Source of the DNA: an uncultured Bacilli bacterium
Lineage (GTDB): Bacteria > Bacillota_I > Bacilli_A > RF39 > UBA660
Reading direction: 5' to 3'
Assembly (NCBI GenBank): GCA_944331935.1
Contig: CALVIV010000010.1
Location: forward strand, 1 to 38,217
Length of the DNA stretch: 38,217 nucleotides
The notes under the pieces are model-generated. The model saw only the letters and a program-made list of their open reading frames with translations, had not been told where the DNA came from and ran no database searches. Shown piece by piece: positions 1,491 through 19,048 of this stretch; position 1 is the stretch's first letter, and each line of letters starts with the position of its first letter. The position numbers and the translations under genes are program-made.

Positions 1491-4400
1491 ATGGATAAAA
1501 ATATGACAATTACTGAGCTTTTAAATAAATTAAGGGGACTATTTAGTAATGAACGAGATAAAGGAACAGCTTTTGAAAATTTAATTAAAATGTATTTAGA
1601 AAATGAACCTAAATATATGGCTATATTATCAGATGTTTGGATGTGGAAGGATTTCCCATATAGAGAAAATATTGGAGATACAGGCATAGATTTGGTCGCA
1701 AAAACTTATGATGGAGATTTTTGGGCAATTCAATGTAAATTTTATGCAGAAAATCACGAGATAACAAAAGGCGATGTTGATACGTTTCTCGCTACTTCTT
1801 CAAAGTACTTTTATGTAGATGATAAGAAAATAAATTTTAAATATAGATTGATTGCATCGACGACGGATCATTATAATCACATTGCTGAATCCACATTAGA
1901 AAACCAGAATCCTCCAGTAGGAAGAATAGGCATAAATGATTTATTAGAATCACAAATTGATTGGGAAAAATATTCATTGTTAGCTCAAAAAGTACCAATG
2001 TTGCAAAAGAAAAAACCAAGAAATTATCAGGAAGATGCTATAAAAGATGTAATAGAAGGATTTAAAACGCATGACCGTGGTAAATTAATAATGGCTTGTG
2101 GCACTGGTAAGACATATACTAGTTTAAAAATTGCTGAAAAACAATTAAACGGGAAAGGAAACATACTTTTTTTGGTACCATCAATTGCATTAGCTAGTCA
2201 AACTTTATCAGAATGGACAGCACAGTGTGAATACACATTTAATGCTTGTGTAGTTTGTAGTGATAATAAAGCATCAAAAGGAGATAATTCAACGGATTTA
2301 GGAATTCCATCTACAACAAATGTAGATAGATTGATAGAATGGTATGTTGATTCTAAAAAATTAAATAGAGATATGAATTTTATTTTTTCTACATATCAGT
2401 CCATTGATGTTGTTTCCGAATTCTCTAAGAAACTGGATATTAATTTTGATTTAATTATTTGTGATGAAGCACATAGAACAACAGGTGTTACGTTAAGCGA
2501 TGAAGATGAAAGCTCGTTTGTTAAAGTTCACGATAATGATTTTATTAAAGGGAAAAAAAGATTATACATGACTGCAACTCCAAAGATTTATGGTGACGGG
2601 GTAAAGGGAAGAGCTAATGAAGTAAATGCAGAGTTGTGTTCTATGGATGATGAAAGTATATATGGTCCAGAATTTCATAAGTTATCTTTTAGTGAAGCGG
2701 TTAAACAAGGATTATTAACTGATTATAAAGTGTTGGTATTAGCAGTAGATGAAGAATATGTAAAAATCGAATTGCAAGATTTATTAAAAGATGAAAATCA
2801 TGAATTAAAATTAGATGATTCGGTAAAAATAATGGGTTGCTGGAATGGGTTATCTAAAATTTCAACATGGGATGAAAAAGAAAATTTCTTATCTGACCCT
2901 ACACCAATGAAAAGGGCAGTTGCATTTTGCAATAGAATAATTGATTCAAAAAAATTAGTAGAAATGTTTAATTTAATTCAGGAGCACGTACGTAGTGAAT
3001 ATAGACCTGATAAAGAAAAATTAGTAAAAGTAGATATTAAACATGTAGATGGCTCTTTTAATGCATTAGAGAAAAAGGAAAGAATAAACTGGTTAAAAGA
3101 TGATATTAAAGATGGTGAATGTAGAATACTTACCAATGCAAGATGTTTATCAGAAGGTGTTGATGTTCCTGCGTTAGATGCGGTAATGTTTCTTAATCCT
3201 AGAAGTAGTATGATAGATATTATTCAATCAGTTGGAAGAGTAATGAGAAAATCTGAAGGGAAAAAATATGGATATGTAATACTTCCTATTGGTGTTTCAG
3301 CATCAGAAGGCCCGGATGAAGCATTGAATAATAACGAAAAATATAAACTTGTTTGGGAAGTTTTGCAAGCTTTAAGAGCTCACGATGACCGCTTTAATAA
3401 CACAATTAATAAAATAGATTTGAACAAGAAAAAGCCAGATCAAATAGAAGTTATTGGAATAGGTACGGCAAAAGCAGAAGAAAAAGATAATGGAACGAAG
3501 ACTATTAAAGTACAAGATGATATAAAACAAAAAGTTCAAATGACTCTTGACTTTAAAACATTTGATGAATGGAAAGACTCAATTTATGCTAAGATGGTTA
3601 AAAGAGTTGGTTCTAGAATATATTGGGAAATGTGGGCCAAAGATGTAGCAGATATTGCAACATCCCATATGAAAAAAATCAAAGAGCTATTAGCCACTAA
3701 TGACCCAAAAATAAAAAAGGCTATTACAGATTTCATCGAAGGATTACGTCAAAATTTAAATAATTCAATAACAGAAGATGATGCAATAGAAACGTTAGCA
3801 GAGCACATGATTACCAAACCAGTTTTTAATGCATTATTTGATAAATATGAATTTGTAAATAACAATCCTGTTTCTCAAACAATGCAGAAAATGATAGATA
3901 TTTTAGATAAACAATTTACAGAAGAAGAAAGAAAAAAATTAGATGAATTTTACGAAAGTATAAAAGAAAGAGCACAAGGAATTGACAATGCGGCAGGTAA
4001 GCAAAAAATAATTCTTGAATTATATGAAAAGTTTTTTAAAACGGCATTACCAAAAGAAGTTGAAAAATTAGGAATAGTATATACTCCGACAGAATGCGTC
4101 GATTTTATAATTAATAGTGTGGAATATTTAATGCAAAAAGAATTTGGTAAGAGTTTATCAGACCACGGAATACATATAATAGATGGCTTTACAGGAACGG
4201 GAACTTTTATAGTTAGATTGTTGCAAAGTGGTGTTATTAAACCACAAGATTTATTGTATAAATATACCAATGATATTCATGCTAATGAAATAGTACTATT
4301 AGCATATTATATAGCAGCTATTAATATTGAAGAAACATTTCATGAATTAAATAAAAGTCAAGAATATATTCCATTTGATGGTATTGTATTAACTGATACT

Positions 4401-6269
4401 TTTCAATTATATGAGGACAGCAATGATCATGAATGGACAAAAAATGTAAATGAATTGGCTTTACCTCAAAATAGTGAAAGAGCATTAAAGCAAAGAGAAT
4501 TGCCTATAACCGTTTGTATTGGAAACCCACCATATTCTATAGGACAGAAATCCGCTAATGATAACGCACAAAATTTATCCTATCCTAAATTAGACTCTAG
4601 AATTATGAATACGTATGCAGCAAGCTCAAAAGCTAATTTAAAAAAAGGATTATATGATTTATATATTAAAGCCTTTAGGTGGGCATCAGATAGAATTAAA
4701 AATAATGGAATAGTTGCTTTTATTACTAATGGTTCATATATTGACAATCAAGGAATGGATGGTTTCAGAAAATGTTTGTTAGATGAGTTTACTTCAATTT
4801 ATGTTTTTAATTTAAGAGGCAATGCTCGAACTTCAGGTGAACAAAGAAGAAAAGAGAAAGATAATGTTTTTGGTATTGGAACAAGGACCCCAGTCGCAAT
4901 TACATTATTAATAAAAAATAGTGAAAAAAATAATGATAAATATATACATTATTATGACATTGGAGATTATTTGTCTAGAGAACAAAAATTAAATATAATT
5001 AATAAATTTAATAACATCAATAATATCGAGTGGAAACATATTACTCCAGATGAAAATAATGACTGGATTAATAAAAGAAAACATGAATTTAAAACTTTTA
5101 TACCTTTAGCACCATCAAGAAAGCATGATATAAATTGTAAATCAGTATTTAATAATTATGCAATTGGGATAGTAAGCAGTAGAGACTGTTGGGTATATAA
5201 TTATAGTAAAAGGAAATTAGAAAATAATATCATTTCAAGTATAAATTTTTATAATCAAGAATTAAAAAGATACCAAAGTATCTCTTCTCTTAATATGGAT
5301 TCTAAAAAAATTAGCTGGTCAGCAGGATTAAAGTCTTTAATAAGAAGAAAAGAAAGTATTGTATTTAATAAAGAAAGTATTACAGATGGTATTTATAGAC
5401 CATATGTTAAAGAAAAATTATATTACAATGATAAACTTATTGAAAGACCAGGGAAAATGAAAGAATTGTTCATAAATTCTAATAAATTAATTATGACATC
5501 AGGGGTTGGATCTAATAAAGCTTTTTCAGTATATATGGTTGATTTAATTCCTAGTTTAGATACATTAGAAAAGGGACAATGCTTTCCGTTGTATTGGTAT
5601 GAAAAGAATAATGAAAATACTCTATTTAATAATAAACAAATTATAAAACATGATGCAATATCGGATTTTATAAAAAAGATAGTAACGAATCAATATAAAA
5701 AGAATATAGAAAAAGAAGAAATATTTTATTATGTTTATGGTTTACTACATTCCAAAGATTATAGCAGAGCATTTGCTTCAGACTTAAAAAAATCATTACC
5801 ACGTATTCCAATAGTAGATACATATGAAGAATTTGTAGCATTCAGTGAAGCAGGAAAAAAATTAGCAAATTTACACTTAAATTATGAACAAGTAAAGCCA
5901 TATTCTAAATGTAAAATATTTATGTATCCAGGTGCAGATTATAAGGTAACAAAAATGAAATTTGGAAAAAGTAAAAATAATAATAAGGATAAAACCATTA
6001 TTGAATATAATGACAAAATAACAATTTCTAATATACCAGAAAAAGCATATGAATATATAGTTAATGGAAAATCAGCTATTGAGTGGGTTATGGAGAGATA
6101 TGCAGTTACAATAGATAAAAAAAGTGGAATTAAGAATGATCCGAATGACTGGTGTAAAGAAGTAAATGATGAAAAATATATCTTTAATTTATTACTAAGA
6201 ATTATTAATGTTTCTATTCAAACGGTAGATATCGTTAATTCTTTACCAAAGTTAGACTTTGAAGATTAA
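1491..6269 (+). CDS. Type ISP restriction-modification enzyme (Mrr nuclease-helicase-methyltransferase, LlaGI-like)
   Basis: A 1592-residue single-chain enzyme that both methylates and cuts DNA. Domains in order: Mrr-like PD-(D/E)XK nuclease (about 1-165; D67 in GIDLVA, then Q81-C-K83); SF2 translocase (about 175-600) with MACGTGKT at 201-208, DEAH at 325-328, TAT at 361-363 and the QSVGRVMRK motif near 578-586; a helical linker; an N6-adenine methyltransferase with FTGTGTF near 900 and NPPY at 1012-1015; and a C-terminal target-recognition region from about 1150. Domain order and length match type ISP enzymes such as LlaGI and LlaBIII (about 1570-1580 aa), which recognise an asymmetric site, methylate one strand and cut after translocating head to head. 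All catalytic motifs are present, so it looks active. The start follows GGAAGTG; a TATAAT lies at 1429-1434. Target sequence cannot be read from the protein. Confidence 0.93.
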   Translation: MDKNMTITELLNKLRGLFSNERDKGTAFENLIKMYLENEPKYMAILSDVWMWKDFPYRENIGDTGIDLVAKTYDGDFWAIQCKFYAENHEITKGDVDTFLATSSKYFYVDDKKINFKYRLIASTTDHYNHIAESTLENQNPPVGRIGINDLLESQIDWEKYSLLAQKVPMLQKKKPRNYQEDAIKDVIEGFKTHDRGKLIMACGTGKTYTSLKIAEKQLNGKGNILFLVPSIALASQTLSEWTAQCEYTFNACVVCSDNKASKGDNSTDLGIPSTTNVDRLIEWYVDSKKLNRDMNFIFSTYQSIDVVSEFSKKLDINFDLIICDEAHRTTGVTLSDEDESSFVKVHDNDFIKGKKRLYMTATPKIYGDGVKGRANEVNAELCSMDDESIYGPEFHKLSFSEAVKQGLLTDYKVLVLAVDEEYVKIELQDLLKDENHELKLDDSVKIMGCWNGLSKISTWDEKENFLSDPTPMKRAVAFCNRIIDSKKLVEMFNLIQEHVRSEYRPDKEKLVKVDIKHVDGSFNALEKKERINWLKDDIKDGECRILTNARCLSEGVDVPALDAVMFLNPRSSMIDIIQSVGRVMRKSEGKKYGYVILPIGVSASEGPDEALNNNEKYKLVWEVLQALRAHDDRFNNTINKIDLNKKKPDQIEVIGIGTAKAEEKDNGTKTIKVQDDIKQKVQMTLDFKTFDEWKDSIYAKMVKRVGSRIYWEMWAKDVADIATSHMKKIKELLATNDPKIKKAITDFIEGLRQNLNNSITEDDAIETLAEHMITKPVFNALFDKYEFVNNNPVSQTMQKMIDILDKQFTEEERKKLDEFYESIKERAQGIDNAAGKQKIILELYEKFFKTALPKEVEKLGIVYTPTECVDFIINSVEYLMQKEFGKSLSDHGIHIIDGFTGTGTFIVRLLQSGVIKPQDLLYKYTNDIHANEIVLLAYYIAAINIEETFHELNKSQEYIPFDGIVLTDTFQLYEDSNDHEWTKNVNELALPQNSERALKQRELPITVCIGNPPYSIGQKSANDNAQNLSYPKLDSRIMNTYAASSKANLKKGLYDLYIKAFRWASDRIKNNGIVAFITNGSYIDNQGMDGFRKCLLDEFTSIYVFNLRGNARTSGEQRRKEKDNVFGIGTRTPVAITLLIKNSEKNNDKYIHYYDIGDYLSREQKLNIINKFNNINNIEWKHITPDENNDWINKRKHEFKTFIPLAPSRKHDINCKSVFNNYAIGIVSSRDCWVYNYSKRKLENNIISSINFYNQELKRYQSISSLNMDSKKISWSAGLKSLIRRKESIVFNKESITDGIYRPYVKEKLYYNDKLIERPGKMKELFINSNKLIMTSGVGSNKAFSVYMVDLIPSLDTLEKGQCFPLYWYEKNNENTLFNNKQIIKHDAISDFIKKIVTNQYKKNIEKEEIFYYVYGLLHSKDYSRAFASDLKKSLPRIPIVDTYEEFVAFSEAGKKLANLHLNYEQVKPYSKCKIFMYPGADYKVTKMKFGKSKNNNKDKTIIEYNDKITISNIPEKAYEYIVNGKSAIEWVMERYAVTIDKKSGIKNDPNDWCKEVNDEKYIFNLLLRIINVSIQTVDIVNSLPKLDFED

Positions 6270-6300: not shown

Positions 6301-6311
6301 TAAAATAGTTG

Positions 6312-6337
6312 AGATATCATTATTATGATATCTTTTT
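6312..6337 (+). terminator. Terminator after the ISP gene, or 5' hairpin of the RT transcript
   Basis: AGATATCAT (6312-6320) and ATGATATCT (6325-6333) form a perfect 9-bp stem with loop TATT, then a run of T to 6337. It would end the restriction-gene transcript. It also lies a few bases after the predicted start site of the RT operon. Confidence 0.7.
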
Positions 6338-6356
6338 GTATTGGATGGAGGTTTTT

Positions 6357-7952
6357 ATGAAAAGAAAAGAAATACGTAATGCGGTTAATCAGGCTATAGA
6401 TAATATTATATACGAAGGTTGTACAGATGTTGCAATATTTGGAAATCCATTCGAGATAAAATTACTAAATAATAAAGAAACAAGAAAGAAAATAACTGAT
6501 GATTTAGTGTTAAATCTTGATAATATTTTAAATTCAAATGGGAAATTTGATATTTTAAAATTTAATAAGATATCACATATGTTAGTTCCCAAAAAAACGT
6601 TTTATGACTTTAGAAAATGCGCATTAATAGATGTAATTGATGAAATAAAATATTTAAGTCTTGTATTATTGATTGCTAATCAAATAGAAAGAAAACGTGT
6701 TTCAAAAAGAATTGCCTTTTCATATAGATATAACCCAAATAAAAATGGGAGACTTTTTGATAAAAAGTATAATTATTCATCATTTAAACATGAATATAAA
6801 AAAATCTCATCAATGAGAAAATACAAGATAATTATAGAATGTGATATATCAAATTTTTATGATAGATTAAATCTTCATCGCTTAAATTCCACTTTATTAT
6901 CAATGGAAGATATAAATAATAAAATATCAGATACTATTGACAATTTACTTTTATTTTGGGCTAATAGAGATTCTTATGGCTTGCCTGTTGGATCTAATGC
7001 TTCAAGAATATTAGCGGAAGCATTTTTAATAGAAATAGACAATTATTTATTGTCTAATGGCATTAGATTTTGCAGGTTTGTAGATGATTATAGATTTTTT
7101 GCAACAAATGTTAGTGAAGCAAATAAAATCTTATCATGTTTTGTAGAAATATTAAACAAGCATGGATTATCTATAAATGCTAGTAAAACGAAAATGAGAG
7201 ATATAAGTGAATATCATATTAATCCATCTAAAAAGAAAAAAACTAATCAAGAAGGAATTTCAGAAATAATAAGAGGATATTCTGGTATAGTACCTTCTAA
7301 ATTTAGAAAATTAAGTAATAGTGAAATTGAAAAGCTAAAAAAAGAAGATGAATTAGAACTACTAAACAATCTTAAAACAGCAAATATTATTGAACCAGCA
7401 AATATTATAAAATGTATCAAAATATTAATAGCCAAAGAAAATTATGATGCTTTGCTAGATTTCCCTGACACATTAAGAAAATATCCACAATTTGTTCCAT
7501 ATTTTTCAGATGTCATGTTTAAAAATAAAGAACGCATATCTAACAAAATTTACAATGATATTTTAAATAGTTTTTTTGAATGGTTGAATGATGATAATAT
7601 GCAAGAATATCTACTCATAAGTATCGTAAAACTATTTGATACAAAAAATATTGAAGAAAAGAAAAAACTTTTTAATTTCTTTAAAAATTTAAAAAGAAAT
7701 TCAGGAATTTATATTGGACGTACTGTTTTAGAACAAATAGGTAATAATTTATCTAGAGGAGAACTTTTAGAATTAAAAGATTATTATTTGAGAGCTGATT
7801 GTTGGGAAAAACGGCAAATTGTAAATATGATTTTAAATGGTCTAAGTTATCCAGAAAACAGACCATTTATAAAAGACTTGAAAATTAATTGTAATGATTA
7901 TTTCATAATAAGCATGATTAATAAATATGAAATAATGCATAGAAAGAAGTGA
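6357..7952 (+). CDS. Reverse transcriptase, Abi/UG-like, with helical C-terminal domain
   Basis: The chosen start (ATG 6357) follows a perfect GGAGG and gives 531 residues; an upstream in-frame ATG at 6309 has no ribosome site and lies inside the hairpin. RT motifs: motif A ECDISNFYDRL with D163; GLPVGSNASRILAE at 208-221; FVDD at 241-244 (catalytic D243, D244); and GLSINASKTKM at 270-280. The first 150 residues and the last 200 (about 330-531) are alpha-helical, the latter resembling the HEAT-like repeats of abortive-infection RTs. The box is FVDD, not the YADD usual in retrons, and the retron NAXXH motif and an msr-msd RNA are not visible. Group II maturase domains are also absent. It is most likely a phage-defence RT of the Abi/UG assemblage. 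It is coupled, 4 bases apart, to an OLD-type ATPase. The exact subgroup was not determined. Confidence 0.85.
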   Translation: MKRKEIRNAVNQAIDNIIYEGCTDVAIFGNPFEIKLLNNKETRKKITDDLVLNLDNILNSNGKFDILKFNKISHMLVPKKTFYDFRKCALIDVIDEIKYLSLVLLIANQIERKRVSKRIAFSYRYNPNKNGRLFDKKYNYSSFKHEYKKISSMRKYKIIIECDISNFYDRLNLHRLNSTLLSMEDINNKISDTIDNLLLFWANRDSYGLPVGSNASRILAEAFLIEIDNYLLSNGIRFCRFVDDYRFFATNVSEANKILSCFVEILNKHGLSINASKTKMRDISEYHINPSKKKKTNQEGISEIIRGYSGIVPSKFRKLSNSEIEKLKKEDELELLNNLKTANIIEPANIIKCIKILIAKENYDALLDFPDTLRKYPQFVPYFSDVMFKNKERISNKIYNDILNSFFEWLNDDNMQEYLLISIVKLFDTKNIEEKKKLFNFFKNLKRNSGIYIGRTVLEQIGNNLSRGELLELKDYYLRADCWEKRQIVNMILNGLSYPENRPFIKDLKINCNDYFIISMINKYEIMHRKK

Positions 7953-7956
7953 TTAA

Positions 7957-9237
7957 ATGTTAAGCCAAATTTATATAAAAAATTTTAAAGCATTTGAAAA
8001 AGAAACAATACCAATTGAAAAACATAATATCATAATAGGAGAGAATGATGCTGGTAAGTCTACTATTTTACAAGCACTTGATATATTTTTTAATCAAGAA
8101 AAAATTGATAAGGTGTTTGTTAGAGATATTAGTCTTCCAGTAGAAATTGGGATATTATTTAATAATAAATTTTATAAAAAGATTTATAGTGGTGCATCAT
8201 ATAAATTGAGCTCGCAATCAGAAAATATATCAGACTTAGATTATTTTAGATATATTTATATTCCTGTATCGGTATATGATCCTAAAAATATATTAAATCA
8301 ATTATCAATTTCTAAAGCGTTATCTACTACACCATCAGAATTGATTGATAAATTGAAAGAAATTGTCCAAAAATCAGTTGACGATGTGATTAAAAGCATT
8401 GATTCTGAATTATTAATTATAAATGATGAAAAAACAGACATAGTTGGCAAAGAAACTTTTAAATATGATGCTGCTATAAAATATTCAATTACAAGTGATG
8501 GCATACCAGTGGAAGCGAGGGGGAGTGGATTCCAAAAAAATTTAATGTATGCTCTGTTGGTTGGTAATAGTTACGATAATGTTATTTTAGGTATTGATGA
8601 GATTGAAAATTCATTCTCGATAAATAATTGCAATAACATGATTAAAGAATTACAATCAAAAATAGGGCAAACACTAATAAGTACTCATTCTGTAACTGTT
8701 TTAGAAGTATCAAATGATTCTAATACAATCCCTTTATATACAGACAAATATGACAATATATCAAAATTATTAGATGCACTTGATAGTACAGATTCTAAAA
8801 TATACTTACTAGTAGAAGGCAAATTCGATTTGCCTTGGTATAAAAAAAGTCTTAGTTTGTTAGGAGTATTATCAAATTATATTCTATTACCAGCAGGTGG
8901 AGAAAGTAATGCAGAATCCTTAAAAAAAGCTTTAGAAGCACATGGAAAAAAGTGTATTATAATAAAAGATGGTGATACAAATGATGAATGTTCTATACAA
9001 AAAGATTGTATTGAGCTATATGTTCCATTAAGTGATCTAAATAGAATATTAAATGTTAATTTAACAAAGGTACCAAATAATAAAAAGGACTTTTTTGATC
9101 AAACTGTTATAGAAGAAGAAAGGAATGAAGATTCTGTTAAAAGAATATTGGCATCACATGTTGATGAATTTCTTAAACAAGATAATCCATTAATTACAGA
9201 AGTAGCACAATTTTTAAATATTGATGACAAGCAGTAA
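7957..9237 (+). CDS. OLD-family ATPase with TOPRIM nuclease domain
   Basis: A 426-residue protein with an ABC/SMC-type ATPase followed by TOPRIM. Visible motifs: Walker A GENDAGKS (28-35), signature-like RGSGFQ (188-193), Walker B ending in D214-E215, and the H-loop histidine in STHS (H244). TOPRIM acidic residues are E287 in LLVEGKFD and D338/D340 in IIKDGD. This is the architecture of OLD (overcoming lysogenization defect) nucleases, which act in defence alone (class 1), with a UvrD-like helicase (GajB, class 2), or in some retrons. The chain is shorter than many OLD proteins (about 550-700 aa) because the ATPase insertions are reduced. The RT gene ends 4 bases upstream, so both come from one transcript. 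The inferred role is a DNA-cutting effector controlled by, or acting with, the RT. Confidence 0.85.
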   Translation: MLSQIYIKNFKAFEKETIPIEKHNIIIGENDAGKSTILQALDIFFNQEKIDKVFVRDISLPVEIGILFNNKFYKKIYSGASYKLSSQSENISDLDYFRYIYIPVSVYDPKNILNQLSISKALSTTPSELIDKLKEIVQKSVDDVIKSIDSELLIINDEKTDIVGKETFKYDAAIKYSITSDGIPVEARGSGFQKNLMYALLVGNSYDNVILGIDEIENSFSINNCNNMIKELQSKIGQTLISTHSVTVLEVSNDSNTIPLYTDKYDNISKLLDALDSTDSKIYLLVEGKFDLPWYKKSLSLLGVLSNYILLPAGGESNAESLKKALEAHGKKCIIIKDGDTNDECSIQKDCIELYVPLSDLNRILNVNLTKVPNNKKDFFDQTVIEEERNEDSVKRILASHVDEFLKQDNPLITEVAQFLNIDDKQ

Positions 9238-10439: not shown

Positions 10440-10458
10440 ATAGAATGGTGATTATTAT

Positions 10459-10947
10459 ATGCGTGAAAGTATAAAAATTAAAACGGATGATTATAATTTT
10501 AAGTTTAGAGTATCAGGTTTAATTATAAAAGATAATAAGCTTTTGTTAGTTGATATGGATGATAGTGGATTTCTTTGTTTACCTGGAGGTTATGTAGAGT
10601 TAGGTGAAACAACAGAAGTTGCAGTTAAACGAGAATTGTTAGAAGAAGTAGGAAAAAAGTTTGATATTAGTGAATATTTAGGTGTTGTAGAAAATTATTT
10701 TATAAATAAATACTCTAAAAAAATTCATGAAATATCTTTCTATTATTTAATGACTCCTATAGAAAATATAGGGACAAATAATTTTACTATAGTATAAAAT
10801 GATAAAGGTCATAAAATAAAATTAGACTTTAAGTGGATTGATTTAAAAGAAATAAATAATTATGATATTAGACCTAGTTTTATTAAACAAATTTTAAATA
10901 AAGAAAATCTCAAATTCAATCATTTGATTTTTAATGGATTGGATTAA
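10459..10947 (+). pseudogene. NUDIX hydrolase gene interrupted by one in-frame TAA
   Basis: The NUDIX box is intact (GGYVELGETTEVAVKRELLE then EVG, about residues 42-64), so the enzyme would hydrolyse a nucleoside-diphosphate-linked substrate. The frame stops at TAA 10795-10797 after 112 residues. The same frame then continues without a shift for 49 more codons to TAA at 10945-10947. The continuation (NDKGHKIKLDFKWIDLKEI, then RPSFIKQIL) is a normal NUDIX C-terminal strand and helix. A single base change, for example GAA to TAA, explains this. The shortened protein keeps the catalytic box but loses a core strand and the last helix. It follows the zeta-like gene by 19 bases and was probably co-transcribed with it. 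Confidence 0.85.
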
Positions 10948-11017
10948 TTAGACTAATATTTATAGTAAATTTGTCTTTTTTTGTAAAATGATTTTTTCTC
11001 AAAATGTAAAATAAAAA

Positions 11018-11046
11018 TTGCTTTTTTTGTAAAATAATGATATGAT
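11018..11046 (+). promoter_or_regulatory. Promoter of the first DUF4143 ATPase gene
   Basis: TTGCTT (11018-11023), 17-base spacer, TATGAT (11041-11046), 24 bases before the ATG at 11071. The stretch CTTTTTTTGTAAAAT occurs twice, near 10976 and 11021. Confidence 0.6.
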
Positions 11047-12498: not shown

Positions 12499-12527
12499 TT
12501 GACAAAGGTTAATGCATATGATAATAT
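12499..12527 (+). promoter_or_regulatory. Strong promoter of the riboswitch/P-type ATPase unit
   Basis: Perfect TTGACA (12499-12504), 17-base spacer, TAATAT (12522-12527) with a TG extension at 12519-12520. Transcription would start near 12534, about 30 bases before the aptamer. Confidence 0.8.
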
Positions 12528-12565
12528 GACAATAACTCTTTGCACTGCATATATACTACAGTACA

Positions 12566-12646
12566 AACTGAACAGACCGTGATATAAATCATGGAGTCGG
12601 GTCACTTATAGTGACAGTGGAATATACACCCACGGGACAGTAGTTA
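12566..12646 (+). ncRNA. NiCo (czcD) riboswitch aptamer
   Basis: The stretch carries the conserved series of the czcD/NiCo aptamer in order: AACTGAACAG, a stem GTGAT/ATCAT, GGAGTCGGGTCAC, a small loop, GTGACAGTGG, a stem TGG/CCCAC, and CGGGACAGTAGTT. From memory, known NiCo aptamers show the same series (AACUGAGCAGG, GCCGGGCUGC, GGCAACAG, GUGGGACAGUU). The RNA binds Co2+, Ni2+ or, by later work, Fe2+ cooperatively. The 3' part of the aptamer overlaps the left arm of a terminator (12627-12673), which predicts an ON switch: metal stabilises the aptamer, the terminator cannot form, and the efflux gene is read. The 3' side of P1 has two extra bases compared with a perfect pairing. Identification is by conserved motifs, not a covariance search. 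Confidence 0.85.
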
Positions 12647-12673
12647 CTAATACTGACTAGTGGGTGTTTTTTT
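12627..12673 (+). terminator. Expression-platform terminator of the NiCo riboswitch
   Basis: CACCCAC (12627-12633) pairs with GTGGGTG (12660-12666); inside, CAGTA pairs with TACTG; seven T follow at 12667-12673. The left arm and inner stem use bases of the aptamer's GGGACAG segment, so the two folds exclude each other. Confidence 0.85.
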
Positions 12674-12727
12674 GTTCAAAATTACAAATTTAGTGGTAAA
12701 GGGTTATCTAAATTATAGGAGGTATTT

Positions 12728-15205
12728 ATGAAAGATAACAAAAAAGATTTATTAAAAAACTTTGTGGGATTAACTAGGGAAGAAGTTATTAACTCAAAAG
12801 AAAAATATGGAGTAAATAAATTAGAAGAGAAGAAAAAACAACCACTAATTTTGAAGATACTTAGTATATTTAAAGAACCAATGTTTCTTCTTCTAATTAT
12901 TGCTGCTAGTATTTATTTTATTGTTGGTGAGTATAGAGATGGAATAATTATGTTGATATTTGTATTAGCAATCTGTCTTATAGAATATATTCAAGAAACT
13001 AAAACTGATAAAGCTTTGGAAGAGTTAAATAAACTATCAGCTTTAAATGTTAAAGTAATAAGAGAAGGAAAAGAAGAAGTTATTTCTAGTGAAGAAGTTG
13101 TAGTAGGAGATATTGTTTTACTAGAAGAAGGAGATAGTGTTCCTGCAGATGGTAAGCTTTTATATACTCAGAGTTTAGGTGTTAATGAATCATCTTTAAC
13201 AGGAGAGTCTTTAGTTGTTTATAAGAATTGTAAAGAAGATAAAGATAATCATTTTAAGTTAAATATGTGTTATTCTGGGACAAATGTAACAAATGGTTTA
13301 GGAGTTATAGAAATAGTATCGGTTGGTAAAAATACTGAGTTTGGACGTATTGGAGAATCATTAAAGGAAATAGAAAAAGAAAGAACTCCTCTTGAAAAAC
13401 AGATAAATAAGTTAGTATTTATTTGTACGATAATTAGTTTTATTGTGTTTCTTTTAACTATAGTAATAAATTATATTAATCATCCAGAATTAGTTTTTTC
13501 TAAAAGAATTATTGAAGCGATTTTAGCAGGTGTTACTATTGCTATGGCAACTATTCCAGAAGAAATACCTGTAGTCTTAACTGTCTTTTTAGCGATGGGA
13601 GCTTGGGATTTGACTAAGAAAAAGACTATTACAAGAAATATGAAAACAATAGAAACTTTAGGGGCTGTAAATGTTTTATGTACTGATAAGACAGGAACAT
13701 TAACAGAAAATAAAATGAAGGTTCAAGATGTATATGAATATAGTGATACTTTTTTAGAAACTTCTTATTTATCATGTCCTCTTGTCGCTTATGATCCAAT
13801 GGAGATTGCTATAAAAGAGTATTGTAAATTAAAAAATGATATTAACTATGGTGAAAAGATTACTAAAGAATATGCTTTTACACCAGAGACTAAAATGACA
13901 GGTCAAGTATGGGATAATAAGTTATTATGTGTAAAAGGTGCATATGAAAGTGTTTTACCACTATGTAATTTAGATAAGAAAAAAAATGAAGAAATAAAAA
14001 AGAAAATAGATGAATATTCTAATGAAGGCTTTAGAGTTTTATCAGTAGCAAGAAATAATAGTTTAAAAAATATTCCTAATAGTTTGTTTGAGGTTAAATT
14101 AACTTTTGAAGGATTAATTGCTTTATATGATCCACCTCGTTTTGGTGTAAAAACATCATTAAGTGAGTGTTATTCTGCAGGAGTTAGAGTAATTATGATA
14201 ACAGGTGATAATGGTGAGACTGCTAAAGGTATTGCTAAGAAAATAAATCTTGCTAATTATGATGAAGTTATTACCGGTAATGAATTAGAAAATATGTCAG
14301 ATGAAGAATTATTTGAAAAAGCTAAGACTGTTAATATCTTTGCAAGAGTATATCCTAATCATAAGATGAGAATAGTTAATGCTTTACAAAAAGATAATAA
14401 GATTGTAGCGATGACTGGAGATGGGGTTAATGATGCTCCGGCTTTAAAGAAAGCGAATGTAGGTATTGCTATGGGAAAAAGAGGTACTAATGTTGCTAAA
14501 GAATCTGCTGATTTAATTTTATTAGATGATAATTTTAATACTATTGTTAAAGCAATTGAAAATGGTAGGACGATATATCATAATATAAGAAAAGCTATCT
14601 CTTATGTAATTGCTATTCATATACCTATAGCTTTGTTATCTTTATTTGTACCAGTATTTAAACTTCCAACTTTATTACTTCCTATTCATGTTATGTTACT
14701 TGAATTATTAATTGATCCAACTTCTTCAATTGTTTTTCAAAGAATAAAACCTTCTTCGGATATTATGCAGGAAAAGCCAAGAAATATAAACGAAGCAATT
14801 TTGAATTTAAAAAATGCTATTAGTAGTATTTCTCAAGGTCTATTAATCTTTCTAGTAGTATTTATAACTTATTTTCTTTTAATTCATAATAATATTAATA
14901 CTAATTTATCAATAACAGTTGCTTATGCAATTTTAGTATTATCTATTATGCTTATTACCTATCAGTTAAGAGGTAATGACTTTACTTTAAAAGCATTTGT
15001 TAAGAGTTTTAAAGATAAAGTATCTTTAATTGTTAATCTGGGAGTTATTATTGGCTTAACTATGTTTGTTTATGTTCCTTTCTTTAATACTGTTGCCAAT
15101 ACAATGCCATTAGAACTAAAATGGTGGCTTCTTATAATTGGTTTAGTGTTATTAGCAATATTACCTTTTGATATATTTAAAGTTATAAATAAAAGAAAGA
15201 AGTAA
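12728..15205 (+). CDS. P-type metal-efflux ATPase (P2-like), riboswitch-controlled
   Basis: An 825-residue membrane pump that moves cations out of the cell at the cost of ATP. Actuator TGES is at 158-161, PEEIP in M4 at 277-281, phosphorylation site DKTGT from D320, and hinge MTGDGVND at 562-569. About ten membrane segments are visible (pairs near 55-95 and 235-285, six after about 620). The order resembles Ca2+-type P2 ATPases, but M4 reads PEEIP rather than PEGLP, and M6 reads ELLIDPTSS. The cytosine-rich heavy-metal N-terminus and CPC motif of P1B pumps are absent. The NiCo riboswitch upstream implies Co2+, Ni2+ or Fe2+ as cargo, overriding a calcium label. The ribosome site AGGAGG is 8 bases before the ATG. 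Single-gene transcript ending at 15225-15246. Confidence 0.9.
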   Translation: MKDNKKDLLKNFVGLTREEVINSKEKYGVNKLEEKKKQPLILKILSIFKEPMFLLLIIAASIYFIVGEYRDGIIMLIFVLAICLIEYIQETKTDKALEELNKLSALNVKVIREGKEEVISSEEVVVGDIVLLEEGDSVPADGKLLYTQSLGVNESSLTGESLVVYKNCKEDKDNHFKLNMCYSGTNVTNGLGVIEIVSVGKNTEFGRIGESLKEIEKERTPLEKQINKLVFICTIISFIVFLLTIVINYINHPELVFSKRIIEAILAGVTIAMATIPEEIPVVLTVFLAMGAWDLTKKKTITRNMKTIETLGAVNVLCTDKTGTLTENKMKVQDVYEYSDTFLETSYLSCPLVAYDPMEIAIKEYCKLKNDINYGEKITKEYAFTPETKMTGQVWDNKLLCVKGAYESVLPLCNLDKKKNEEIKKKIDEYSNEGFRVLSVARNNSLKNIPNSLFEVKLTFEGLIALYDPPRFGVKTSLSECYSAGVRVIMITGDNGETAKGIAKKINLANYDEVITGNELENMSDEELFEKAKTVNIFARVYPNHKMRIVNALQKDNKIVAMTGDGVNDAPALKKANVGIAMGKRGTNVAKESADLILLDDNFNTIVKAIENGRTIYHNIRKAISYVIAIHIPIALLSLFVPVFKLPTLLLPIHVMLLELLIDPTSSIVFQRIKPSSDIMQEKPRNINEAILNLKNAISSISQGLLIFLVVFITYFLLIHNNINTNLSITVAYAILVLSIMLITYQLRGNDFTLKAFVKSFKDKVSLIVNLGVIIGLTMFVYVPFFNTVANTMPLELKWWLLIIGLVLLAILPFDIFKVINKRKK

Positions 15206-15408: not shown

Positions 15409-15442
15409 TAATTTGAAGATATATATTTTAGAAGGTGATAAT

Positions 15443-16525
15443 ATGTTAAGAGTTTTTGAAGCATTTTCTGGTGTTGGTGCACAACGTATGGCATTAAGAA
15501 ATTTAAAAGAAGACTATAGAATAGTTGCAACTTGCGATATTGACGAAACTGCTATTCTTGCATATTATTATACTCATGGTAATAATAAGAAAAGTAGAAA
15601 AAAATATGATGATCCAAAGAAGAGAAAATTTATAATTGATAGGGGAATTGGAAATAAAAATAAAATTTTAAAAATGGGATCTGATTCTTTGGATGTATTA
15701 TTTAATGCAGTGGATGTATGCAATAATTTAGGAGATATTACTAAGTTAGATGTAAATAAAATACCGGATCATGATTTATTTACATATTCATTTCCTTGCC
15801 AGGATATATCATCAGTTGGTACTAAGAAAGGTTTAGATGCTGGAAGTGGCACTAGAAGTTCTTTACTATGGGAATGTCAAAAAATTATAGAAAGTAAAAA
15901 ACCAAAATATTTATTGTTGGAAAACGTAAAAAATTTAACTACTGGGAAAAATAAGAAAAACTTTCATGATTGGCTTGATTATTTAGATGACCAAGGATAT
16001 ACTAATTATTGGAAAATTTTTGATGCTAAAGATTATGGAATCCCACAACGAAGACCACGTGTTATTGTTGTATCAAAATATGGAGAATGCAATACTAATT
16101 TAGTGAAAGATAATGATGTGTTAGTTAGCAAAAATATAGAGGATATTATAGATTTTAATGAAAAGGATTGGAAAAAATTTGTACCAAAATCTAAAGTTAG
16201 AGGATCTGTTAAGAATAAACATTATGCTTTTTTAGATGATCGTGATTGGAAATTAAATGGTGTGATGATTGGAAAATATTGTTCAACACAAAGAGCTGGA
16301 AGAACAGGATTAAAGATAATAAAAAATGAAAATGGTCAACTATTTGAAAGAAAATTAAATGCATTAGAATGCTGTAGATTAATGGGATATGATGATTCTG
16401 ATTATTATAATATGAAGAACGGTAATTTAACTGATGGGCAAATAATGAAAATATGTGGTAATTCTATAGTTGTTAATGTCTTAATGAATGTTTTTAAAAA
16501 CATATATGAGGAGGAGAACTTATGA
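15443..16525 (+). CDS. DNA (cytosine-5) methyltransferase 1 of a type IIS system
   Basis: The ATG at 15443 follows AGAAGGTGAT and begins directly with motif I (FEAFSGVGAQ, residues 5-14); a TTG 30 bases upstream lacks a ribosome site. The 360-residue enzyme has the catalytic PCQ (C119), the ENV motif (160-162), QRRPR (motif VIII) near 199 and a C-terminal GNSIVVNVL (motif X). It transfers methyl from S-adenosylmethionine to C5 of cytosine. Between motif I and PCQ it carries an unusually lysine-rich insertion (about 47-75). Its TGA overlaps the ATG of the second methyltransferase (ATGA, 16522-16525). Two different m5C enzymes beside one nuclease suggest each protects one strand of an asymmetric site. 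Confidence 0.92.
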   Translation: MLRVFEAFSGVGAQRMALRNLKEDYRIVATCDIDETAILAYYYTHGNNKKSRKKYDDPKKRKFIIDRGIGNKNKILKMGSDSLDVLFNAVDVCNNLGDITKLDVNKIPDHDLFTYSFPCQDISSVGTKKGLDAGSGTRSSLLWECQKIIESKKPKYLLLENVKNLTTGKNKKNFHDWLDYLDDQGYTNYWKIFDAKDYGIPQRRPRVIVVSKYGECNTNLVKDNDVLVSKNIEDIIDFNEKDWKKFVPKSKVRGSVKNKHYAFLDDRDWKLNGVMIGKYCSTQRAGRTGLKIIKNENGQLFERKLNALECCRLMGYDDSDYYNMKNGNLTDGQIMKICGNSIVVNVLMNVFKNIYEEENL

Positions 16526-17625
16526 TAAATGGATTATCCCTTTTTTCAAATGTCGGAATAGGAGAATTATTTCTGAATGATTGTGGTATTAATATTGTTG
16601 TTGCAAATGAGCTTGAGGATGATAGAGTAAAATTTTATAAAAATGTTTATCCCAATTGTGAAATGATAAGTGGTGATATTAACAAGCATTATGATGAAAT
16701 AATAGAGAAAGCTAAGAAAAAAAAATGTAAATTTTTAATGGCTACACCACCTTGTCAAGGAATGAGTGTTGCAGGCAAAAGAGATTATTCTGATAGTAGA
16801 AATACTTTAATTATTCCTGTTCTTAATGCAATAAGGGATCTTGATCCTGATTATGTTTTGATTGAGAATGTGCCTCAATTATTAAAGTTAAGAATTAATT
16901 ATAATGGTAAATACGATACAGTTGAGAAAATTATTGAAAATGAGTTTGGTGATATTTATCATATTAATAAAAACAAAATAATAAATGCACAAGATTATGG
17001 TGTTCCTCAAAATAGAAAAAGAGCGATTATACTATTGAATAAAAAAAATAAATGGGAGTTTCCAAAGAAAAATGATAAAATTATTACGGTCAGGGATACA
17101 ATAGGAGATTTGCCAAGTGTCGAGGCTATAATTGATGGTAATACTAATTATTTTGAGGGTAATGATAAAAAAATCGAAGAGTGTAAAAAAATTCATAAAT
17201 GGCATGTTCCAAAAGAACATTCGATTAGACATGTTGAAATTATGCAACATACTCCTACTGGACATTCGGCATTTGAAAATGAATTTTACTATCCTAAAAA
17301 GATGGATGGTACTCGTGTAAAAGGATATAATACAACTTATAAAAGAATGGAATGGGATAAACCTGCCCCAACAATTACTATGGCAAATGGTGTTATTTCT
17401 TCTCAATGTAATGTACATCCTGGAAGAAAAAAGAAAGATGGTACTTATAGTGATGCTAGAGTTTTAACAATTTATGAGATTATGAGATTATTTACTATAC
17501 CTGATGATTGGAAAATACCTGATTGGGCAACGGATAATTTTATAAGAAAAGTTATTGGAGAAGGAGTTCCTCCATTGTTAATATATAAAATAGTTAGTAA
17601 TTTGGATGGTGATAATAATGAATAA
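16522..17625 (+). CDS. DNA (cytosine-5) methyltransferase 2 of a type IIS system
   Basis: A 367-residue m5C methyltransferase starting in a 4-base overlap with the first and preceded by GAGGAGGAG. Motif I is LSLFSNVGIGE (5-15), the catalytic P77-C78-Q79, ENV at 115-117, and QNRKR near 163. A target-recognition region rich in H, T and Y lies between about 215 and 310, and motif X is reduced near KVIGEGVPP at the end. The sequence is clearly different from the neighbour's, so the pair did not come from a recent duplication. The stop (17623-17625) lies inside the endonuclease gene, giving tight coupling: modification enzymes first, nuclease last. Confidence 0.92.
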   Translation: MINGLSLFSNVGIGELFLNDCGINIVVANELEDDRVKFYKNVYPNCEMISGDINKHYDEIIEKAKKKKCKFLMATPPCQGMSVAGKRDYSDSRNTLIIPVLNAIRDLDPDYVLIENVPQLLKLRINYNGKYDTVEKIIENEFGDIYHINKNKIINAQDYGVPQNRKRAIILLNKKNKWEFPKKNDKIITVRDTIGDLPSVEAIIDGNTNYFEGNDKKIEECKKIHKWHVPKEHSIRHVEIMQHTPTGHSAFENEFYYPKKMDGTRVKGYNTTYKRMEWDKPAPTITMANGVISSQCNVHPGRKKKDGTYSDARVLTIYEIMRLFTIPDDWKIPDWATDNFIRKVIGEGVPPLLIYKIVSNLDGDNNE

Positions 17626-19048
17626 AGATGTATGGTTATTTCCACAAAATTCATGTAATATTAAACAGTTTTTTATTACTTTAAATGTATTTGGTAAACT
17701 TAATGGTATTAGTAGAAATGAAAATGTTCAACAATTACTTATGGAACAGCACTCAAAAATGGGAGTATATAATCCTTATGTTAAAAAGAATTATTATGAT
17801 TTTTCTTCAGCAAACCATAAAATTGATGAACCACGTTTTTATGGAGCAATATATGAAACTGCAAATAGAAAAATTCATGTTAGTTCTTATGGTGAATTGT
17901 TATTGAAGTATGAAAATGAAGAAGTAAAAAGAAATAAAGTTTTTATTGGTATGTTATTTAATATTCAGTTTGATAATCCTTATAAAAAAATGAAAGATTT
18001 CGATATTTATCCTTTAAGATTAATATTTAAACTGTTAACTGATAAGAGACTAGACTGTAAGCTTACTAATATAGAAGTATCTGAAATATTATATTATGTA
18101 AAAACAGTTAAAAATAATAAACAATATGATGATATAGTTAATAGAATTATAAAATTTAGAAATGATAGCACTCAAATAGAAACAAAAATGTTAATAAGTG
18201 ATGTTACTCAATTTATTAAAAATTATGTTAGTTGCAATTATTTATTCAATATTTTGTTCAGCCTTAATATTATTATTCAAGAAAAAGAAAAAAATCGTTT
18301 TCTTTTACAATCTAAGGTTAGGAAAAATCCAACTGTGATTACACCAAGAATAATAGAATTATCTTCTAATTATTTTGATTTTGTAAATAAATATTTATCT
18401 CAAATTACTTTATATGAAAAAATTAAAAAGCCTTGTGGTCTTAGAAGCGATTGGATAAGGGATATATATAATAGTGTGCCGGAGTTATTATTACAAGAAA
18501 TAGGAGAAAGTGAGGATATTTATACAAAGTATCTTCAAATCCCAAAATTACTTGTTGAAACCTCTACTGATTCTAGTAAGTGGTCAAAGTTTGAACAATA
18601 TATAACAAAAAGTTTTAATTTATTTGAGGATGTTAATGCAGAAACAATAGGTGGTCCTGGGCAACCTGATTCTTTATGTCATTACTTAAAAGATGATATT
18701 GTGTTTTGTGCTGATGGTAAATCAACACATAAAAAATTATCAAGTATAAATGATGGCAGATTAAAACAACATAGAACATTATACAATGCTAAATATACAA
18801 TAATTGTAACTCCGGGATATGTTCCAAGTGCAGTTGAAGATATAAAAGGAACAAATACTTGTATTATTACATCATATTGTTTTGCAGATTTAATTACGAA
18901 GTATATATTTAAACTATATAGAAATCATGAAGAATGTAGTTATGAGATATTTAATAATTTAATACTAAATAATTTAGGCACCGATTTAAGTGAAAAGATT
19001 TATTCAATAATTGATGATAGACTTGGTATTGCAATGGATAATTTATAA
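17618..19048 (+). CDS. Type IIS-like restriction endonuclease, FokI/AlwI-type cleavage domain
   Basis: The start is ATG 17618 (after GGTGATAAT), overlapping the methyltransferase by 8 bases, and gives 476 residues. The N-terminal two thirds (MNKDVWLFPQNSCN onward) would bind DNA. The last third has ETIGGPGQPDSL, then FCADGKST, then RLKQHR and KYTIIVTPGY. D351, D366 and K368 form a PD-(D/E)XK site, and the layout (GG-x-PD, D-x-K, a strand ending in a G-containing turn) parallels the FokI cleavage domain. AlwI-, MlyI- and PleI-type enzymes have the same plan. A type IIS enzyme cutting outside an asymmetric site fits with two methyltransferases. Recognition sequence is unknown. The family name is inferred; the nuclease call is firmer. 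Confidence 0.8.
   Translation: MNKDVWLFPQNSCNIKQFFITLNVFGKLNGISRNENVQQLLMEQHSKMGVYNPYVKKNYYDFSSANHKIDEPRFYGAIYETANRKIHVSSYGELLLKYENEEVKRNKVFIGMLFNIQFDNPYKKMKDFDIYPLRLIFKLLTDKRLDCKLTNIEVSEILYYVKTVKNNKQYDDIVNRIIKFRNDSTQIETKMLISDVTQFIKNYVSCNYLFNILFSLNIIIQEKEKNRFLLQSKVRKNPTVITPRIIELSSNYFDFVNKYLSQITLYEKIKKPCGLRSDWIRDIYNSVPELLLQEIGESEDIYTKYLQIPKLLVETSTDSSKWSKFEQYITKSFNLFEDVNAETIGGPGQPDSLCHYLKDDIVFCADGKSTHKKLSSINDGRLKQHRTLYNAKYTIIVTPGYVPSAVEDIKGTNTCIITSYCFADLITKYIFKLYRNHEECSYEIFNNLILNNLGTDLSEKIYSIIDDRLGIAMDNL

Follow-up and report, generated by a model that had tools for sequence, protein, structure and literature searches.

What is expelled by a P-type ATPase that resembles calcium pumps in its fold, when its gene is led by an RNA of the NiCo (czcD) riboswitch class? 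This question is raised by a locus in the window, i.e. the whole stretch of 38,217 nucleotides from an uncultured Bacilli bacterium that was analysed. The first-pass annotation of this DNA had proposed that the leader re-labels a calcium-type pump as a transition-metal exporter. The answer favoured here is that a NiCo ON-switch probably controls a transition-metal exporter, and that this exporter belongs to a little-known P2 subfamily. That the pump exports a transition metal is itself quite likely, and its most likely substrate range is Co2+/Ni2+/Zn2+, perhaps with Fe2+. Table 1 lists the features of the locus.

Table 1. Features of the leader and pump locus, with their positions in the window.
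Feature	Position	Strand	Basis
Leader-plus-pump unit, 97–98% DNA identity with L006, L007 and L011	12480..15251	+	blastn, border alignments
Sigma-70-type promoter, putative	12499..12527	+	TTGACA, 17 nt, TAATAT; 10/12
P0 hairpin, UUG-C-ACUG / CAGU-A-CAA, largely 5′ of the Rfam model	12540..12566	+	RNAalifold
NiCo (czcD) riboswitch aptamer	12558..12642	+	RF02683, 68.6 bits, E = 5.8e-14
Overlapping intrinsic terminator, competes with P1 and P4	12627..12673	+	CACCCAC...GTGGGTG, T7, folding
AGGAGG ribosome-binding site, 5 nt 5′ of ATG	12717..12722	+	by eye
P2-type cation ATPase, 825 aa	12728..15205	+	P2-type domains; predicted ion-site residues E278, E279 (M4), H631 (M5), E659, D663 (M6); phosphorylated Asp D320

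A covariance search of the 38-kb window gave a match to the NiCo family (RF02683) whose score is to be compared with a cut-off of 37 bits. The match spans the full model (positions 1–96), and no other Rfam family was over its cut-off in the window. By covariance model the leader is thus a NiCo riboswitch, which confirms the call made in the first-pass annotation. A yybP-ykoY manganese riboswitch was also considered as the leader and was dropped, since NiCo alone exceeds the Rfam cut-off. Only this copy of NiCo was found in the 1.48-Mb genome, and none was found in 14 control genomes. The two GGG stretches, UCGGGU and ACGGGACAG, are both matched by motif in the leader; CGGG and GGGAC are invariant across nine aligned NiCo leaders. 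Conserved guanines bind the metal in this class, according to a passage of PMC7689651.

The terminator overlaps the 3′ part of the aptamer, as had been noted before. Its stem consists of CACCCAC (12627–12633) and GTGGGTG (12660–12666) and is followed by seven T residues; CAGTA (12638–12642) and TACTG (12651–12655) form an inner stem, and the fold energy is −16.8 kcal/mol (z = −2.7). The terminator shares nucleotides 12630–12633 with the 3′ strand of P4 and 12638–12641 with the 3′ strand of P1. Through these nucleotides the expression platform competes with the aptamer, and the two structures are mutually exclusive. A consensus terminator scanner did not list this terminator, probably on account of its interrupted stem and long loop. 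When the metal-free leader is folded freely, the terminator fold is obtained at −41.8 kcal/mol, as against −28.1 kcal/mol when P1 and P4 are forced. This suggests that the metal-free default is OFF and that metal must bind before the terminator strand is made. ON switching through a terminator has been reported for the NiCo class (excerpts of PMC7689651 and PMC7917058).

The locus may then operate as follows. Without surplus metal, the nascent leader would form the terminator and transcription would end before the pump gene. If the four-way junction of the NiCo RNA is occupied by a divalent transition metal while transcription is under way, P1 and P4 would be held together; the terminator would then be blocked and the ATPase made. 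The ATPase would expel the metal via a site formed by Glu278/Glu279, His631, Glu659 and Asp663, and not via the Asn-containing site of Ca2+ pumps.

A consensus promoter had also been proposed. The putative promoter (−10 type element at 12522–12527) is well placed and agrees with the consensus as given in Table 1, but such sites are no more frequent than expected by chance, with three found in the stretch and 3.4 expected from shuffles. The promoter call therefore rests on position and on the layout in L008, a related locus whose pump is 82% identical to that of the window and where a promoter-like sequence, the aptamer and the terminator are all present. By eye, a layout like that of the window promoter is seen in L006, L007 and L011 as well as in L008.

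Leaders in this group may contain an additional 5′ hairpin, P0. The sequence TTGCACTGCA is found upstream of the aptamer in 10 of 24 leaders and an AA variant in two (L019 and L021); neither is present in the other 12 (L022–L033). In leaders with one or the other, this strand forms pairs with the conserved bases that come first in RF02683, CA(G/U)U-A-CAA. The Rfam model contains only the 3′ strand of P0, and P0 may be the explanation for the conserved unpaired ACAGUACAA at the start of the model. The alignment used for P0 included nine of the 12 motif-bearing leaders, the near copies L006, L007 and L011 being left out, and RNAalifold predicted the hairpin unprompted in these nine leaders selected for the 5′ motif. 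Six of its seven pairs are unvarying, and in one both bases change, from C-G to A-U, in two of nine rows; since the rows were selected for the motif, support for P0 is modest. P0 is also found in L008, L002, L003, L017, L018, L019, L020 and L021, ahead of CDF, P2-type and one ABC gene. The extra hairpin of the window leader is shared by some CDF leaders.

The window pump has PEEIP in M4 (residues 277–281), HIPIA in M5 and LELLIDP in M6, and Pfam reported no HMA domain in it; the earlier description, a PEEIP form of M4 without heavy-metal-binding domains, is borne out. No CPx motif was found before DKTG. The pump is not of the P1B type, since it reaches only 256.4 of 346.25 bits with TIGR01525 and has no HMA domain by Pfam. 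The predicted ion-site residues were placed by alignment. All five (E278, E279, H631, E659 and D663) show no variation among 16 aligned pumps, i.e. the window pump and 15 relatives of 43%–82% identity.

The Ca2+-ATPase equivalog models of NCBIfam (PMR1, SERCA and PMCA types) are all below cut-off, at 506.6 of 798.3, 423.5 of 703.4 and 362 of 507.05 bits. LMCA1 (lmo0841, PDB 6zhf/9evc), a Ca2+-ATPase with about 32% identity, is alike in P2A fold and domain order. The alignment with LMCA1 however shows PEEI for PEAL in M4, His for Asn in M5 and Glu for Asn in M6, the M6 Asp (D663) being kept. The pump thus has the M6 Asp expected of P2A Ca2+-ATPases but PEEIP where PEGL or PEAL is expected in M4. 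PEGL is given as the characteristic motif of Ca2+ efflux pumps in a passage of PMC10654040. The structure model of the pump is of moderate confidence (mean pLDDT 79.8), and its nearest folds are SPCA1 (Z = 35.9, rmsd 6.9 over 777), LMCA1 and SERCA; such a model shows the predicted fold, not the substrate. The earlier view, a calcium-type pump relabelled by its leader, needs correction: the predicted ion site is unlike that of Ca2+-ATPases and there are separate PEGLP-type pumps in the genome. A NiCo leader together with an ion site unlike those of calcium pumps suggests that the pump probably ejects surplus transition metal and not calcium.

Two other families were considered and dropped. P6/CtpE-type Ca2+ uptake pumps keep PEGL and are without the M6 Asp, the reverse of the window pump (excerpt of PMC10654040), and ZccE of S. 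mutans is described as a P1B-type pump with an SPC motif (excerpt of PMC9387928).

The genome encodes seven P-type ATPases including the window pump. The other six display PEGLP (contigs C32 and C51), PEGL (C67), TPSMLP (C42) and CPC (two on C57); the TPSMLP pump is presumably MgtA-like. A CDF exporter was searched for in this genome, which is 92% complete, and gave no match. A FeoB_N search gave 10 matches, largely resembling other GTPases. CbiM is absent, which has no bearing on the choice of metal.

NiCo RNAs are found in 3 of 288 genomes of the order and, at E ≤ 0.001, in 18 of 395 genomes of the class (15 of these over the cut-off). In the 18 class genomes NiCo is followed by a CDF exporter in 14 (12 called by Pfam; L026 and L028 by eye), a PEE-type pump in two (G000 and G547), an ABC transporter in one (L019) and an unassigned gene in one (L024). 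The remaining two order genomes with NiCo (G120 and G186) also have PEEFP pumps; NiCo leaders precede both PEEFP and PEEIP pumps. In L019 (G431:C3), NiCo scores 58.6 bits and stands ahead of an ABC transporter ATPase and a permease-like open reading frame. In L024/L071 (G338:C149), a NiCo match of 50.3 bits has no recognisable exporter downstream up to the contig end. The NiCo-led PEEFP pump of L067 (G547) is broken by a frame change near its start, which may point to gene decay or to an error of assembly.

Within the genus, a homologue of the window pump is present in 29 of 35 genomes at E ≤ 1e-100, but this is mostly a calcium-type paralogue. The window-type pump occurs at 98%–100% identity in four genomes (G000, G779, G780 and G782), all four with NiCo, and at 60%–62% in G762 and G770, neither of which has NiCo. 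A search for the PEE motif matched 7 of 395 class genomes, four of the matches being P-type pumps, and 13 of 319 family genomes, where the loci were read as P-type pumps. The matches listed for the phylum sample all lie within class-sample genomes and were counted once. Most of the named close relatives carry the label uncultured Tenericutes.

In total, 23 PEE[FIL]P pump loci were compared. A NiCo leader is present in eight (the window, L004, L005, L006, L007, L008, L011, and L067 with 31.9 bits, below the cut-off) and an ArsR gene is directly upstream in three; 12 have neither (L009, L010, L016, L092, L094, L095, L096, L098, L099, L102, L103 and L104). In L098 an ArsR gene is found some 2.7 kb upstream, separated from the pump by a permease-like gene, and this was not counted. 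The three ArsR/SmtB genes (L093, L100 and L101) end 8–21 nt before the pump. Their proteins all pass the NCBIfam ArsR/SmtB model NF033788 (85.6, 90.4 and 87.8 bits; cut-off 55), and for the one set against solved structures CzrA is the closest, followed by SmtB. All three display the ending D-x-H-x10-H-x-x-E, which we take to be the alpha-5 metal site as in SmtB. ArsR sensors with the alpha-5 pattern answer Zn, Co and Ni and are not known to answer Fe2+.

The genus-wide calcium-type paralogue was used as a control; it has IPEGLP in 24 of 25 loci (the exception is L062) and NLVTD in 23 of 25. No ArsR gene was found at the 25 paralogue loci, and no NiCo at the 21 control loci scanned (20 of the 25, and L064); one control locus, L044, has only 74 nt of upstream sequence. 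A sensor is thus present at 11 of 23 PEE loci and at 0 of 25 paralogue loci (Fisher 6e-5). The pooled set is biased, which slightly lowers the odds of the favoured reading: G186 entered only via NiCo, and the window is closely related to L006, L007 and L011. If the count is confined to the 14 pumps that came from the motif search, three have NiCo, two have ArsR and nine have neither, and the difference from the paralogues persists (5/14 vs. 0/25, Fisher 0.0035). The pump loci with neither sensor count against the favoured reading. Since the loci are related, there may be three or four independent events. In the tree, NiCo leaders are found in two clades, a PEEFP clade with G120, G186 and G547 (which also holds E. 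gilvus and G215) and the PEEIP clade to which the window pump belongs; a starred branch parts these clades, and the ArsR pumps are on the PEEIP side. When sensorless rows are ignored, one label change suffices (support 61/61), so one ancestral NiCo followed by losses is as open as two gains.

The choice of metal has to be weighed against ferrous iron. It is possible, although unlikely, that the leader senses Fe2+ and that the pump is a P2-type ferrous iron exporter, with the role that PfeT/PmtA-type P1B4 pumps have elsewhere. An ion site of oxygen and nitrogen ligands suits Fe2+ and was counted for this alternative, whereas the D-x-H-x10-H-x-x-E ArsR proteins beside three related pumps, with their Zn, Co and Ni range, speak against it. 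The ligand of the NiCo class is itself disputed (excerpts of PMC7689651 and PMC9294342). In passages of PMC7689651, cellular metal availabilities are held to favour Fe2+ or Mn2+ as the ligand, and a Listeria P1B-ATPase under a czcD riboswitch confers Fe2+ resistance in B. subtilis; an excerpt of PMC11477304 lists the class as an Fe2+ riboswitch. On the other hand, three NiCo RNA sensors that were tested in E. coli with several metals, among them Fe2+, are reported to be very specific for Co2+ (excerpt of PMC7917058), and binding by the Eba czcD RNA in vitro is given as 61 nM for Ni, 93 nM for Zn, 120 nM for Co, 400 nM for Fe and 11 uM for Mn (excerpt of PMC7689651). These in vitro and E. coli data overlap with the alpha-5 ArsR range in Co, Ni and Zn. 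Thus, of the earlier proposal that Co2+, Ni2+ or Fe2+ is exported, transition-metal export remains the best reading, in agreement with the ArsR/SmtB genes upstream of three related pumps and of none of 25 paralogues, but the ArsR partners favour Co/Ni/Zn over Fe.

That the pump exports Ca2+ (or Mn2+/Ca2+) and is merely induced by a transition metal appears improbable. Ca2+-ATPases do provide the top NCBIfam model as well as the closest solved sequences and folds (LMCA1, and SPCA1, which has also been solved with Mn), but the best equivalog score falls well below its cut-off, PEGL is replaced by PEEI and the M5 and M6 Asn residues of LMCA1 by His and Glu, and other pumps of the PEGLP type are available in the same genome. 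A comparable arrangement is MgtA of S. pneumoniae, which exports Mn2+ and is controlled by a yybP-ykoY riboswitch that senses Mn/Ca (excerpts of PMC11434433 and PMC9331361). A P2 pump may transport Mn as well as Ca; MgtA is titled a Mn2+/Ca2+ ATPase in the reference list of PMC11434433, although a passage of its text says P1B-type. Finally, the leader could be non-functional, a NiCo relic that has decayed or is coincidental. The sister pumps L009 and L010 (73%–74% identity) give no NiCo match, which suggests that the leader is dispensable, but the score of 68.6 bits over the full model and the retention of the promoter-like sequence, aptamer and terminator in L008 make a relic very improbable.

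There is also a slight preference for a wider proposal. Pumps with PEE[FI]P / HIPIA / LEL(L/I)IDP may form a separate, uncharacterised P2-type transition-metal exporter subfamily with a carboxylate-plus-histidine site, replacing CDF exporters in small Tenericutes-like bacteria and moving as self-contained units with a NiCo RNA or an ArsR/SmtB sensor. If this is true, a branch of P-type ATPases that is automatically annotated beside calcium pumps needs re-annotation, and riboswitch and repressor context would be a route to assigning the metal of a pump. The same pump family under a NiCo RNA or beside ArsR would allow the ligand ranges of both sensors to be compared against one substrate, which bears on what NiCo RNAs sense.

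Taken singly, the elements are already known: NiCo RNAs, P2-type ATPases, and P-type ATPases led by metal riboswitches. The NiCo-led CDF exporters have the aptamer, overlapping terminator, ON architecture and downstream exporter in common with the window, but the window gene is a P2-type ATPase, while CDF genes account for 14 of 18 in the class sample. LMO3448 of Listeria, under a czcD riboswitch, is likewise a metal-exporting P-type ATPase behind a NiCo RNA, but it is a P1B pump and a PfeT relative (excerpt of PMC7689651), unlike the P2-type window pump with PEEIP and no CPx. The yybP-ykoY RNAs before MgtA (S. pneumoniae) and YoaB (L. lactis) also combine a metal riboswitch with a P-type ATPase exporter, with another RNA class and another metal (excerpts of PMC11434433 and PMC11477304). 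No report of a NiCo RNA before a P2-type pump was met in the literature searched; the primary NiCo papers lie outside its scope, and absence from print is not shown by this. The literature search gave no relevant paper on PEEFP/PEEIP pump motifs.

The leader-plus-pump unit begins a little upstream of the promoter and ends a little after the stop codon. Its flanks differ among the window, L006, L007 and L011: the left neighbour of L006 corresponds to window positions 10447–11026, and the flanks of L007 and L011 show short matches only, to distant places in the window. The unit is surrounded by defence genes; its neighbours encode a restriction enzyme of type ISP, a reverse transcriptase of Drt8-like kind together with an ATPase, a zeta-toxin-like protein, and an AlwI-like restriction enzyme with two methylases. 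The unit appears to be accessory cargo of a variable region. A plasmid origin was dropped, the best among the matches listed being 46.9% (Enterococcus gilvus, without NiCo), as was a phage origin, with all 133 phage records below 60%.

Several of these neighbours may be described briefly. Positions 1491–6269 encode a type ISP single-chain restriction-modification enzyme of 1592 aa. At 6309–9237 there is a probable defence RT system, in which the Drt8-like reverse transcriptase (E = 2e-120) precedes an AAA ATPase with AriA/Old-like matches. Directly after the pump, at 15413–19048, two cytosine methyltransferases and the AlwI-like restriction enzyme are encoded in a row.
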